A DNA stretch of 64,000 bases from Planctomycetota bacterium (GTDB lineage Bacteria > Planctomycetota > JAJSAM01 > JAJVHW01), in NCBI GenBank assembly GCA_021414065.1, contig JAIOPE010000055.1, positions 1-64,000 of the forward strand. The letters run 5' to 3'. The notes below the pieces were generated by a model. That model made no database searches and had not been told where the DNA came from. It saw only the letters and a program-made list of their open reading frames with translations. Both the position numbers and the translations under genes were made by a program. Shown one piece after another: positions 1,454 to 5,709 of this stretch. The number at the start of each line of letters is the position of its first letter. Position 1 is the first letter of the stretch.

Positions 1454-3217
1454 ATGCGTGAGCGAACGTGCGGCAGAGTCCGGGACTGGATGCGGTGGTG
1501 CGTCGCGGTGGTCGGCGTGCTGCTCGCTGTGGCGACGGCGCGCGCGGGCGAAGGCGTGCCGCGATGGGCCGAGGTGGACGTGGACCTCGGGCGCGACGGG
1601 CGCAGCAGCGTGACGTACGCGGTCTGCTACGAAGTGACTTCGGGCGAGTTCCACGGGTTCTGGTTCTCGGGGCCGCAGATCGACGCGCTCCGCCCCGTGT
1701 GGGACGACCGGTTCGGACTCGCGACGGCCGACGGCGGGCGGACCTTCCCGCTCGTCCGTGGGAACCGGAACGGGAAGCAGACGATCGAACTCGCGAATGG
1801 CGCGGGCCTCTCGAGCGGCCGCGTGATCTTCAAGTTCCGCTTCGCGACGAACTTCGCGACCACCGGGATGCTCGCCCGCACGACCCCGGCGGAAGGCGAC
1901 GCGCTCGTCGTCTTCCACTGGAGCCCGAGCACGTGGGACCACGCACTCGAGCACGAGACGGTGCGCGTGCGTTATCCCGTGACGGTTCCCGAGGGGACGG
2001 ACCCGAAGTCGAAGGAGTTCCTCGAGTCGGTGCTGTTCCGGACGGAGGCCGCGATGAACGCGGCGTTCAAGATCGACTACCGGCGCACCGCCGACGACGC
2101 TCGCTTCGAGGTGCTGCTCCACAAGGACGGCGTCGCGAAGGACGCCACCTTCGACATCCAGCAGTACGTGCGAGCGACGATCTTCGACGCAACGCTCGGT
2201 GCGGCACCTGCGCCCACGCCGTCCCGGCACGATCCCCCGCGTCCTGAACCGCAACCGATCCCCGCGACACCCAACCGGCCCCCGCAGCGAGCGCCCGAGA
2301 GCGGTTCCGGCGGCGGGCGACTCGTCCTCACCGCCATTCTGCTCGCGCTCGGAGGTGGCTTCGTCTGGCTCCTCCTGCGCAAGCACAGAGAGACACGGAC
2401 CGCGCGGGCTTCGCTTGACCGCGTGGGCTGGTCGTCGGTCGAGTGGGTGCCGCCGAAGATCGAGATGTCGTCGTTCCGCAAGGCGGGGAAGGTGTGCGAA
2501 GACCTCACGCCCGTCGAGGTCGGCGTCTTCCTCGGCCTCCCGTACAAGCGGCTCCTCAGCATCGTGCTGCAGCGCCTGCTCCAGGCCGGGTTCTTCGAGA
2601 TCGTCACGGAGGACCCGCTGGAGGTGCGCATCCTGCCGCGGCACCCGTCGGAGCTCGCGAAGCTCGAGCCGTGCGAGGCCGAGATGATCGTGGCCGCGGG
2701 CGACGACGGGCGTTTCTCGGAGGCCGAGCTGAAGGCCGTGCTGCAGCGCGTCGTGGACTCCGTGCGGAAGAAGACGTGGGATTGCGACATCGACGCGACG
2801 ACGAAGCACTGGCGCGCGAAGATCGACACCGTGTGGGCCGAGCGCGAGAAGCTGGGCCACACGCCGCGCCCGGTGGACGCCGCTCGCACGCCCGCCTTGC
2901 AGAACATGGGCTGGTACCACTGGTACTACTGGAACCAGGGCTACCACGACTACGACCGGACCTACCGCCCCGGTCGGTTCGAGCGGTCGATCCCCGTGAC
3001 CGCCGGAACCGTGGACTACACGACGTACCTCGGCGACGCGACGCAGGCGGCACCGGATCTCGGCGCGACGGGAGCCGCCGACGCCTGCCACTCGGCGTGT
3101 CACTCGGCCTGCCACGACGCGTGCCACGACGCCTGTCACTCGGCGTGTCATTCCGCCTGTCACTCGGCCTGCCACTCCGCGTGTCACTCGGCCTGTCACA
3201 GCGGGGGATCGTTCTGA
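1454..3217 (+). CDS. Membrane protein with C-terminal (Ala-Cys-His-Ser/Asp)x10 repeat; likely radical SAM target
   Basis: 587 residues. Residues 1-31 form a signal peptide or membrane anchor, followed by a beta-rich extracytoplasmic domain to about 255, a Pro-rich linker, one transmembrane helix (about 290-312) and a cytoplasmic winged-helix-like segment (about 330-480) reminiscent of DUF2207/TIGR04222-type membrane proteins. Then come a Trp/Tyr-rich stretch (about 484-530) and ten consecutive A-C-H-S/D units (544-583) before a GGSF end. Codons for the repeated residues vary (tgc/tgt, cac/cat, tcg/tcc/agc), so the peptide is conserved, not just the DNA. With one internal helix the repeat tail should face the cytoplasm. 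The stop overlaps the start of the radical SAM gene (TGATG). Repeated Cys beside an RRE-radical SAM-SPASM enzyme suggests the tail is modified, for example by thioether crosslinks; a metal-binding tail is the alternative. Confidence 0.8.
   Translation: MRERTCGRVRDWMRWCVAVVGVLLAVATARAGEGVPRWAEVDVDLGRDGRSSVTYAVCYEVTSGEFHGFWFSGPQIDALRPVWDDRFGLATADGGRTFPLVRGNRNGKQTIELANGAGLSSGRVIFKFRFATNFATTGMLARTTPAEGDALVVFHWSPSTWDHALEHETVRVRYPVTVPEGTDPKSKEFLESVLFRTEAAMNAAFKIDYRRTADDARFEVLLHKDGVAKDATFDIQQYVRATIFDATLGAAPAPTPSRHDPPRPEPQPIPATPNRPPQRAPESGSGGGRLVLTAILLALGGGFVWLLLRKHRETRTARASLDRVGWSSVEWVPPKIEMSSFRKAGKVCEDLTPVEVGVFLGLPYKRLLSIVLQRLLQAGFFEIVTEDPLEVRILPRHPSELAKLEPCEAEMIVAAGDDGRFSEAELKAVLQRVVDSVRKKTWDCDIDATTKHWRAKIDTVWAEREKLGHTPRPVDAARTPALQNMGWYHWYYWNQGYHDYDRTYRPGRFERSIPVTAGTVDYTTYLGDATQAAPDLGATGAADACHSACHSACHDACHDACHSACHSACHSACHSACHSACHSGGSF
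3083..3202 (+). repeat. 12-bp period coding repeat encoding ten A-C-H-S/D units
   Basis: Ten in-frame 12-base units encode Ala-Cys-His followed by Ser (eight units) or Asp (units 3 and 4). Synonymous positions differ between units, so recent slippage alone does not explain the repeat; selection on the peptide is likely. Confidence 0.95.
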
Positions 3218-4629
3218 TGCGCGGCGGATCGACGTGCCCGGCCGCGGTGCCCGCGGCGCCCTCGGTGGCGACCGAGCCGGATCTCGCGTGGGCCGACACG
3301 TGGGCGCGGAACGTCCGCGACTTCGTGTTCGTCCGCGAGGAGGACTCGGTCTTCATCCAGCGGCCGAACAAGGCGTTCAAGCTGAACCCGTCGGCGATCC
3401 GCATCCTGAAGCGGCTCTTCGCCGGGGAGCCGATCGCGACCATTCTCGCGCCGTTCGGGAAGGACCCGCGCGTCCGGCGGGACACCGAGCGGTTCCTGCT
3501 CGACCTGCGCCATCTGCTCGCGCACGGGCTGCCCGACACGTACGCGTCGCCGGCCGTCGATCGGAAGCCCTTCGGCATGAACTTCTCGCCGCTCCCCGTG
3601 ATCTCGGAGATCGCGGTGACGTACCGCTGCAACGCCGCGTGCTCGTTCTGCTACGCGGGCTGCAACGAGACGGTCAACCCCGTCGGGAGCGCTTCGGAGA
3701 TGACTCTCGACGAGGTCCGCCGCGTCCTCGACCGGATCGCGCACGAGGCGCAGGTGCCGAGTGTGAGCTTCACGGGCGGTGAGGCGACGTTGCGCGACGA
3801 CCTGCCCGACATGATCCGCCACGCCCGGTCGCTCGGGATGCGCGTCAACCTGGTGACGAACGGCATCCGGTCGGCTTCGCCGGAGGTCGTCGCGTCGCTC
3901 GTCGCCGCAGGACTCCACTCCGCGCAAGTGAGCGTCGAAGGTACGACCGCCGGAGTTCACGAAGGGATCACGCGGATTCCGGGCTCGTTCGACGCCACGA
4001 TGCAGGGCATTCGGAACTTCACTGCCGCGGGCATCCGCGTCCACACGAACACGACGATCTGCAGGGACAACATCGACGACGTGCTCGCGTTCCCGGTCTT
4101 CGTGCGCGACGTGCTCCGCGGCGAACGGTTCAGCATGAACCTGTGCATCCCCACGGGCAGCGCTTCGCTCCGCGCGGCGCCGCCGGTCCTCTACCGCGAC
4201 GTCGCGCAGGTCCTGCCGCGCATCCTCGCGGCGAGTCGCGCCGCGGGAATCGAGTTCCTGTGGTACTCGCCCACGCCGGTCTGCATCTTCAACCCGGTCG
4301 CCGAGGGCCTCGGGAACAAGGGCTGCTCCGCGTGCGACGGACTCCTCTCCGTCGGCGCCGACGGCAGCCTGCTCCCATGCGCGAGTTGGGACCGCCCGCT
4401 CGGCTCCATCGTGGATCGCCCGTTCCGCGAGCTGTGGACGTCGCCCGAGGCAACGGCGCTCCGCGCGAAGTCCGCTGCGCCGGAGCACTGCCGCGCCTGC
4501 GAGCACCTGGCCGTCTGCAACGGGGCGTGCCCGCTCTACTGGCGACAGGTCGGATGCGGCGAACTCGACGAAGCACGCGCGGCGGTGGACGCCCGTGCGG
4601 CGGCGCGCCGGTCGGGAGGTGCCTCATGA
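3217..4629 (+). CDS. Radical SAM/SPASM peptide maturase with N-terminal PqqD-like domain
   Basis: 470 residues; the start ATG overlaps the stop of the upstream gene by one base. Residues about 28-107 look like a PqqD-type RiPP recognition element (FIQRPNKAFKLNPSAIRIL then a helical hairpin). The radical SAM core follows, with the CxxxCxxC cluster motif (C138, C142, C145; RCNAACSFCYAGC) and an SFTGGEATLR glycine-rich motif. Residues from about 369 form a SPASM domain with many Cys (GCSACDG, LLPCASW, HCRACEHLAVCNGACPLYW) for auxiliary Fe-S clusters. Enzymes with this architecture (PqqE, QhpD, sactionine/ranthipeptide synthases) modify ribosomal peptides or protein tails. The neighbouring ACHS-repeat protein is the obvious candidate substrate. 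The chemistry performed is not known. Confidence 0.92.
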   Translation: MRGGSTCPAAVPAAPSVATEPDLAWADTWARNVRDFVFVREEDSVFIQRPNKAFKLNPSAIRILKRLFAGEPIATILAPFGKDPRVRRDTERFLLDLRHLLAHGLPDTYASPAVDRKPFGMNFSPLPVISEIAVTYRCNAACSFCYAGCNETVNPVGSASEMTLDEVRRVLDRIAHEAQVPSVSFTGGEATLRDDLPDMIRHARSLGMRVNLVTNGIRSASPEVVASLVAAGLHSAQVSVEGTTAGVHEGITRIPGSFDATMQGIRNFTAAGIRVHTNTTICRDNIDDVLAFPVFVRDVLRGERFSMNLCIPTGSASLRAAPPVLYRDVAQVLPRILAASRAAGIEFLWYSPTPVCIFNPVAEGLGNKGCSACDGLLSVGADGSLLPCASWDRPLGSIVDRPFRELWTSPEATALRAKSAAPEHCRACEHLAVCNGACPLYWRQVGCGELDEARAAVDARAAARRSGGAS

Positions 4630-5639
4630 CTGCGCCCGTCGAGACGGCCCGCGCGAAGCCGTCGGCGTCGGCCCCCGGAGGCGTGCTCGGGATCGTCCGC
4701 GCTGAATCAGCCGAGCCGGTGCTGACGTTCGCGGTCGCGAGGCGCATGGCGTACCGCACGCGCCTCGGGTGGGTCATCGGTCTCGTGCTGGTCGGGATCA
4801 TCGTGCAGGTCGTGACGATGTCCGTGCTGCTCGGCGTCCCGTTCCTCGTCGCCGCCGTGGTGATGTCGTGGGTCGTCGGGTTCGACAGCCGCCTCGACCG
4901 CCGGGGGCTGCCGCGGGACCCCGCGTGGGAGAACGCGCCGATCGAGAGTGTGGCGGAGATCGTCGAGCGCGACGACGCCATGACACGCTGGGACCGGAGC
5001 GCCACCGACATCAGCAACGGCACCGGGTTCGGCGTGTGGTTCGGCACGGCGTTCGGCGTGCTCGTCGTCTCCGCGCTGACTGCCGTGAACGTCGGCGCCA
5101 CCCCGGGGGCGATCGTCGCCGTGGACGGCGCGGCGCTCTTGCTCCTCCAGTGGTTCAGCGGGATGCGCAGCGTGCAGCGGCGCCCGGGCCTCGTGCTGAA
5201 GGCCGGGCACCTGCGCGACGTGCTGCCGCCGCTGCGCGCCCTCGTTGACGGGGTGGGCGGACGTCTGCAGGCGCAGTTGCAGATGACCGGGACCGCCGGT
5301 AATCGCGCGCCGGACGACGTGCGCGTCGCCGTCACGTTCCCGGCGCCGAAGGGGTCCGTGTTGACGGTGCAGGGTCAGGTGGTCCTGAACCGGGTCCAGG
5401 GAGTGCCGAACCCGTACCTCTACGCGGTCGTCGTCGGGACGCCGGGCCAGGGGCTCCTCGACCGCGGCCGGGCGATGAAACTCCCGCCGGACGTCATCCG
5501 CGAGGTGAAGCACGAGAAGGGCATGGACCTCGTCATCGTTCGGCAGCACACGACGAAGACATCGGGCTACCGAACGAGCGTGACCGTCAGCCGCCAGATC
5601 CTGGAAGCGGCCATCCGTCTCGCGGCGGCGAAGGGCTGA
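4626..5639 (+). CDS. Conserved membrane protein of the radical SAM/CHSA operon
   Basis: 337 residues; the ATG overlaps the radical SAM stop in an ATGA. Four hydrophobic helices in two pairs are visible (about residues 43-85 and 140-180), with a GFDSRLDRRGLP loop between them and a cytoplasmic-looking C-terminal domain of about 150 residues (LRDVLPPLRALVDGVGGRL... and a beta-rich end). I do not recognise the family. Tight coupling to the radical SAM gene argues that it works with the modified repeat protein, perhaps as a membrane partner or export/assembly factor; this is inference. Confidence 0.75.
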   Translation: MTAPVETARAKPSASAPGGVLGIVRAESAEPVLTFAVARRMAYRTRLGWVIGLVLVGIIVQVVTMSVLLGVPFLVAAVVMSWVVGFDSRLDRRGLPRDPAWENAPIESVAEIVERDDAMTRWDRSATDISNGTGFGVWFGTAFGVLVVSALTAVNVGATPGAIVAVDGAALLLLQWFSGMRSVQRRPGLVLKAGHLRDVLPPLRALVDGVGGRLQAQLQMTGTAGNRAPDDVRVAVTFPAPKGSVLTVQGQVVLNRVQGVPNPYLYAVVVGTPGQGLLDRGRAMKLPPDVIREVKHEKGMDLVIVRQHTTKTSGYRTSVTVSRQILEAAIRLAAAKG

Positions 5640-5664: not shown

Positions 5665-5709
5665 ACGTCGGAACACGGGAGTCTGTGAGTTTGCGGGGAC
5701 CGTCCCCGC
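5665..5709. repeat. Copy 2 of the GGGGAC/GTCCCC dispersed repeat, between convergent genes
   Basis: This matches 1234-1280 and ends in a perfect palindrome, GCGGGGAC-c-GTCCCCGC (5693-5709), lying across the 3' ends of two convergent genes. It could act as a transcription end signal or be a REP-like relic. There is no T-tract. Confidence 0.5.

Follow-up and report, generated by a model that had tools for sequence, protein, structure and literature searches.

The DNA window analysed here is a 64,000-nt stretch of a Planctomycetota contig (JAIOPE010000055.1), and at positions 1454-5639 on its plus strand lie three adjacent genes, referred to as A, B and C, which together make up the cassette that is the subject of this report. 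Gene A (1454-3217, plus strand; 587 aa) encodes a tail-bearing membrane protein, the proposed substrate; gene B (3217-4629, plus strand; 470 aa) encodes a radical S-adenosylmethionine (SAM) enzyme with a SPASM region and a RiPP recognition element (RRE; RiPP, ribosomally synthesized and post-translationally modified peptide), the proposed tail maturase; and gene C (4626-5639, plus strand; 337 aa) encodes a protein with four transmembrane helices and a C-terminal domain that carries an RQxTTxxSGY motif. The TGA of A and the ATG of B share one nucleotide, and B and C are joined by an ATGA overlap. A previous description of this DNA, made from its letters alone (the sequence-only reading), had reported three tightly overlapping genes, a first protein ending in ten Ala-Cys-His-Ser/Asp units, a second with PqqD-like, radical SAM CxxxCxxC and SPASM parts, and a third with four membrane helices. 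The open reading frames and their overlapping start and stop codons are as described there, the count of units is exact, and the features of the other two proteins are borne out, with the RRE sub-threshold in this particular enzyme and the four helices predicted as two hairpins. Promoter and terminator consensus scans and an Rfam search gave nothing useful.

Protein A begins with a signal peptide or first hydrophobic segment (aa 1-31; 1454-1546, plus strand), identified by hydropathy and as a helix in the AlphaFold model. It is followed on the same strand by an outer beta-sandwich domain (aa 33-245; 1550-2188), a single transmembrane helix (approximately aa 286-321; 2309-2416; hydropathy and model), a conserved domain, present in the model and predicted to be cytoplasmic (aa 326-470; 2429-2863), and the repeat tail (3083-3214), which is disordered by prediction (predicted local distance difference test, pLDDT, ∼40). 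The outer domain resembles the N-terminal domain of M1 aminopeptidases and ribophorin I/Ost1 in a Foldseek comparison, a match that covers ∼230 residues at E ∼3e-6 and is a likeness at the level of the fold only (whole-chain TM-score ∼0.25). Lys and Arg residues are more frequent on the C-terminal side of the transmembrane helix than before it. Since there is one such helix with positive charge C-terminal of it, the tail is predicted to be cytoplasmic, on the side of the membrane where B works. A profile search of the PDB with A gave no match. The window protein likewise has no match to DUF2207 (PF09972) or to TIGR04222 (NCBIfam), and among 42 homologues nine match the former at E<0.01 (best 5.4e-5) and six the latter (best 4.2e-8), so that the scaffold appears to be a distant DUF2207/TIGR04222-like protein. 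All 61 A scaffolds compared belong to one connected homologous family of conserved membrane proteins, 500-900 aa in length.

The tail of the window protein consists of exactly ten units, eight ACHS and two ACHD (3083-3202), followed by GGSF. Third codon positions vary among the units (Ala GCC/GCG, Cys TGC/TGT, His CAC/CAT), and the Ser codons include TCG, TCC and AGC. Because this synonymous variation accompanies a fixed Ala-Cys-His, the repeat is maintained by selection at the protein level, and a fresh duplication of DNA is ruled out. The rest of the 5.5-Mb genome has no further match to the pattern. Across the family the tails mostly contain 7-9 CH units, with Ser (673 of 793) or Asp (77 of 793) as the usual residue after CH. 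Most have Val in place of His in the last unit; the most frequent ends are ACHSACVSGG[A/S][H/R], and a conserved short GG-containing motif is often found there. Pairwise identity between lineages averages 0.94 for the tail and 0.32 for each folded domain of A. A tail that differs by ∼6%, attached to domains that differ by ∼68%, is probably itself the function of A.

Enzyme B has the sequence features of an RRE-radical SAM-SPASM maturase. The window protein matches the radical SAM family PF04055 (1.7e-23) and the SPASM family PF13186 (2.4e-9). The cysteines of the CxxxCxxC cluster motif (C138, C142 and C145; 3628-3651, plus strand) are invariant in 50 of 50 homologues, and so are seven cysteines of the SPASM region (C356, C370, C388, C425, C428, C434 and C438; 4282-4530, plus strand), which is matched by PF13186 in 49 of the 50; the usual final Cys after Cx2Cx5Cx3C is not conserved. 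In the PqqD-like/RRE region (aa 51-98; 3367-3510, plus strand), 20 of the 50 homologues match PF05402 with E<0.01, the best at 6.6e-11, and the match of the window protein is sub-threshold (E=0.002). Of the solved structures, those closest to B are the sactionine synthase SkfB and PqqE.

Protein C has four predicted membrane helices in two hairpins and a C-terminal soluble domain that is cytoplasmic by its charge pattern. Its family directly adjoins A or B in ∼70 distinct loci, which makes the membrane partner proposed by the sequence-only reading a real one. Invariant residues include W101, Y266 and T317, and an RQ...SGY stretch is near-invariant. No family was found for C in Pfam, NCBIfam or PDB profile searches, and although its structure model is good (pLDDT 88), Foldseek against the PDB gave no match below E 0.09; a likeness to biotin ligases was discarded, as the Foldseek matches behind it (TM-score ∼0.13) are noise. 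The order of the genes is variable, with one A-C-B locus (L058) and one that starts A-C at a contig edge (L132). In type-II loci, found mainly in Chloroflexota, Myxococcota and Cloacimonadota (L056, L064, L067, L076, L092, L102, L103, L111, L115, L116, L121 and L125), an unrelated soluble protein of ∼400 aa, coiled-coil-looking, replaces C after B. The tails of these cassettes are interrupted by CVHDAC/CVCHSAC-like units and end in ACVSxF or ACVSSCAGGF. In one further variant (L057), a second A copy (449-2152) is followed by C (2174-3136) without B, and the other copy in the same genome (L063) belongs to a full cassette, which suggests that one enzyme may serve two substrates.

The distribution of the cassette was examined by scanning 84,980 genomes with a DNA pattern that describes just the tail and is blind to B. 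At least 116 loci were matched, and 101 of the matches listed are genuine; the real total is higher. The other 15 (L055, L081-L083, L085, L090, L100, L124, L127, L142, L150, L151, L157, L158 and L163) were left out because they lack the scaffold or the enzyme, or because a stop interrupts the repeat. Most of the genomes with tail loci are metagenome-assembled; Desulfobulbus alkaliphilus DSM 24258 and Herbivorax sp. ANBcel31 are among those that are not. By record titles, and among the matches listed, the genuine loci fall in more than 25 phylum-level groups, Asgard archaea included. The bacterial lineages are Planctomycetota, Chloroflexota, Spirochaetota, Myxococcota, Thermodesulfobacteriota, Acidobacteriota, Aminicenantes, WOR-3, Omnitrophota, Elusimicrobiota, Kiritimatiellota, Verrucomicrobiota, Lentisphaerae, Hydrogenedentota, Sumerlaeota, Calditrichota, Bacteroidota, Bacillota, Gammaproteobacteria, Gemmatimonadota, Armatimonadota, Cloacimonadota, Riflebacteria and Fermentibacteria; the archaeal ones are Thorarchaeota, Lokiarchaeota, Heimdallarchaeota and Thermoproteota. 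The recurrence of the tail in at least 101 other loci excludes chance as its origin. Viral contigs gave 12 matches to the tail pattern, none with the B enzyme. Three contigs from IMG/VR (L194, L195 and L196) contain short open reading frames of the form (ACNS)n(ACHS)nASSKHNAYS(ACHS)n, with no scaffold or radical SAM gene in the stretch examined.

The tail and the enzyme are found together almost without exception. In 59 relatives, full-length A homologues retain the tail, and in complete loci a B homologue follows them. Among the genuine loci of the matches listed, B lies within the retrieved piece in 93 of 101 (89 downstream on the same strand, 3 divergent and 1 upstream), and B is likewise encoded in each of the other 8 genomes. 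This is the opposite of what would have spoken against the sequence-only reading, namely repeat proteins regularly found without a radical SAM neighbor; its pairing of the ACHS-repeat protein with a radical SAM enzyme is confirmed, with a distribution far broader than it had noted. The co-occurrence of the two genes, which it had suggested checking across genomes, is also seen in whole genomes, where the sets with A and with B coincide among 392 planctomycete and 251 Chloroflexota genomes. In the planctomycetes the 13 strong A matches and 13 strong B matches are in the same 13 genomes (chance ∼1e-24 under independence, which related genomes do not have). In the Chloroflexota A is found in 16 genomes and B in 17, the seventeenth (G634) having a scaffold with a broken reading frame and the sister tail described below. 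The distances among family members are also correlated (mirror-tree correlations of 0.77 for A-B, 0.87 for A-C and 0.78 for B-C, with permutations reaching 0.28 at most). Across loci, the neighborhoods share no further recurring gene family.

For four of the eight unpaired loci, the separation of A from B coincides with the edge of a locus, contig or scaffold. B is divergent and just beyond the retrieved piece in L073; in L098 the contig ends 200 bp past A and overlaps the contig with B by ∼101 bp; in L114 there are N-gaps beside A and beside a distant B, and the exception is probably a scaffolding artefact; and in L136 A runs off its contig and the end of the tail sits on the contig with B. 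In L146, L154 and L155 the tail gene is unlinked to B in the sequence examined.

A sister branch of the family has a different tail on the same type of scaffold. These A-type proteins end in a Gly-rich run followed by CACACACAGCACACAGGGR or close variants, a Cys-Ala tail without His (CACA type, CACACACAG), and they adjoin a B homologue of ∼280-330 bits. The carriers are 14 of the Chloroflexota genomes, the planctomycete G283, and G413, which has both an ACHS and a CACACACAGCACACAGGGR system, each with its own enzyme. In a maximum-likelihood tree of 66 enzymes and 5 outgroup enzymes, the ACHS-linked and CACA-linked B proteins are parted by a single change (support 100/100 for the ACHS branch and 95/69 for the CACA branch), so the type of tail tracks the enzyme clade. 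The sister-system loci (L209-L211, L215-L232 and L188) are mostly from Chloroflexota, and several have a second radical SAM gene adjacent (∼80-120 bits). Canonical DUF2207 proteins served as a control for the scaffold. They are present in 10 of 149 planctomycete genomes, seven of them are full-length with Gly-rich, Cys-free tails, and no B-like enzyme was seen near their genes in the ten loci, where the flanks examined were partly short. The enzyme thus goes with the Cys tail, and not with the DUF2207-like scaffold as such.

Based on these features, we consider it likely (probability roughly 0.72) that the locus is a three-gene protein-maturation cassette, in which B modifies the tail of A and C acts as partner. 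This supports the interpretation in the sequence-only reading, which had proposed a membrane-tethered tail modified by thioether or His/Cys crosslinks, perhaps as a metal- or redox-active chain, the last two points being conjecture here as well. In this scheme A would be exported and held by its one transmembrane anchor, leaving the disordered (Ala-Cys-His-Ser/Asp)n tail in the cytoplasm. B would dock through its PqqD-like RRE at the cytoplasmic membrane face and modify the tail unit by unit by 5'-deoxyadenosyl-radical chemistry. The modification is most likely Cys-centered, with crosslinks of the thioether type, although this is conjecture; the products would be repeated intrapeptide bonds from the Cys sulfur to a carbon of the neighboring Ser, Asp, His or Ala, or else a Cys/His crosslink. 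The spacing of Cys, the Ser or Asp after His, the Val in place of His in the last unit, and the His-free sister tail all suggest that Cys rather than His is the primary target. C would be a partner specific to this system, which works together with the matured tail, forms an assembly with it or reads it out. For such a tail, a role in redox reactions or metal binding is plausible, again as conjecture. More tentatively, and in our view rather doubtful as a whole, a radical-SAM-crosslinked Cys/His chain might be a widely shared membrane cofactor of Bacteria and Archaea, a redox or metal relay at the cytoplasmic face of the membrane, with a Cys-Ala sister version and C as its partner.

Several points weigh against this interpretation. 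The covalent modification of the tail is a prediction from sequence, from which the type of bond is not readable. The RRE is sub-threshold in most B members, and B also scores against AhbD and NirJ2, enzymes of heme pathways with non-peptide substrates, so that homology by itself leaves room for a substrate that is not a peptide. C is not universal, given the type-II loci. In L057, L146, L154 and L155 the tail gene was not seen beside B, and the co-occurrence counts are not independent events, the genomes being related.

The scores against AhbD and NirJ2, together with the density of Cys and His ligands, would also fit an unmodified tail that serves as a metal- or Fe-S-binding strip, with B acting on some other molecule or obtaining iron or electrons from the tail. 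We regard this as unlikely, since B carries an RRE, which is typical of peptide modification, the His-free Cys-Ala tail goes with a different B clade, and no further gene family recurs nearby. Slightly less probable still is that A is the precursor of a RiPP, its scaffold being a membrane-bound leader from which the modified tail is cleaved off as a small bioactive peptide. An RRE, a radical SAM enzyme and a repetitive core are indeed RiPP-like, and the tail lies at the C-terminus, where the short GG-containing motif is often found; however, the cassette genes have no recurring peptidase or exporter family next to them, conservation extends to the folded domains on either side of the membrane, and the tail is near-invariant across phyla, unlike antagonistic peptides. 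Every CHxACH contains C-X3-C-H, and CHSACH could be read as a CX3CH heme-c motif with covalent heme on the tail, which we consider very improbable because c-heme attachment is extracytoplasmic and the tail is predicted to be cytoplasmic, the sites would overlap, and the sister tail has no His. Finally, unrelated repeat reading frames do give some pattern matches (the 15 of 116 listed loci that are not genuine), but a coincidence of a low-complexity repeat with an unrelated radical SAM gene is refuted by the 101 or more genuine loci, the identical genome sets, and the tie between tail type and enzyme clade.

The maturation cassette is flanked by two copies of a 44-nt direct repeat (1234-1277 and 5665-5708, no strand assigned), which are 84% identical to each other. 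A 35-nt consensus of the repeat has only two sites in the 5.5-Mb genome, both flanking the cassette, and the repeats may mark its insertion as one unit. The sequence AGGGCTGAC stands shortly upstream of each copy. The tree of B departs from the species phylogeny, with a Chloroflexi enzyme (L060) beside one from Desulfobulbus (L088) and that of the planctomycete G008 beside one from Acidobacteria (L058), and this mismatch suggests that the cassette has moved by horizontal transfer.

Known radical SAM maturases have mostly small-peptide substrates and are found in limited lineages. Here the candidate substrate is a large conserved membrane protein with a near-invariant repeat, accompanied by an enzyme of its own and by another membrane protein, in dozens of phyla and in Asgard archaea, and the proposed sister chemistry on the same scaffold adds a second version of the system. 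A and B are a directly testable enzyme-substrate pair, probably with a new bond or cofactor, and the cassette provides a handle on DUF2207/TIGR04222 proteins, for which we know of no function. From the comparisons made, the cassette looks like a widespread protein-modification system without earlier description in the open-access literature or in the curated families searched. No open-access paper was found that contains CHSACHSAC, or that joins DUF2207 with radical SAM or "CXXX repeat" with radical SAM. No NCBIfam model shown reaches its cut-off for the window A or B, and B falls in no curated equivalog.

The closest published parallel is that of TIGR04222 membrane proteins with Cys-rich tails, predicted to be periplasmic, beside multinuclear non-heme iron-dependent oxidative (MNIO; DUF692-type) enzymes, in which about a third of the genomes with TIGR04222 genes have no MNIO genes (PMC12452194, 2025). 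The statement of the sequence-only reading that no system with this repeat had been described holds for the open-access literature and curated families searched, with this related idea now in print. Both systems have a membrane protein on a distantly related scaffold, with a low-complexity, Cys-bearing tail beside a candidate modifying enzyme. They differ in that the enzyme here is a radical SAM-SPASM protein with an RRE, the tail repeats ACHS or CACA strictly instead of being Ser/Gly with scattered Cys, the tail is predicted to be cytoplasmic rather than periplasmic, and the association with the enzyme is near-total. The window operon has the radical SAM B in place of an MNIO, and the other loci have no recurring extra family, MNIO not having been searched for by name.

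Among radical SAM systems, the CXXX (TIGR04117) and ACGX (radical SAM TIGR04340) families share with the cassette the recurrence of Cys at intervals of four residues and an enzyme of the radical SAM/SPASM type. The tail scores 18.3 bits against the 98-position TIGR04117 model (E=0.002; cut-off 50), six of 42 A members match it weakly, and B scores 78 bits against TIGR04340 (cut-off 400); a TIGR04117 search of this genome and 14 control genomes gave no match in any, the controls being silent too. Unlike those targets, A is a conserved membrane protein of 500-900 aa. The His-Xaa-Ser (Hxs) systems also pair His- and Ser-containing repeats with radical SAM proteins, and the radical SAM survey PMC9062424 cites these repeats as putatively matured by HxsB and HxsC; the ACHS repeat is unmentioned in that survey. 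The repeat unit and scaffold of Hxs are different, and B scores 97 bits against HxsC4 (cut-off 500) and is also far below the cut-off for HxsC. SkfB and other sactionine synthases and PqqE resemble B in the radical SAM core, the SPASM Cys pattern and the RRE; these enzymes modify small precursor peptides, and B reaches 93 bits against the PqqE model TIGR02109 (cut-off 381). QhpD is a radical SAM enzyme that forms thioether crosslinks in a protein subunit. By this description it is like the proposed activity of B, thioether formation on a protein rather than a small peptide, although the subunit that QhpD acts on is soluble and has no repeat tail. Set beside these systems, the cassette appears to be RRE-radical SAM-SPASM maturation directed at a previously undescribed class of substrate.

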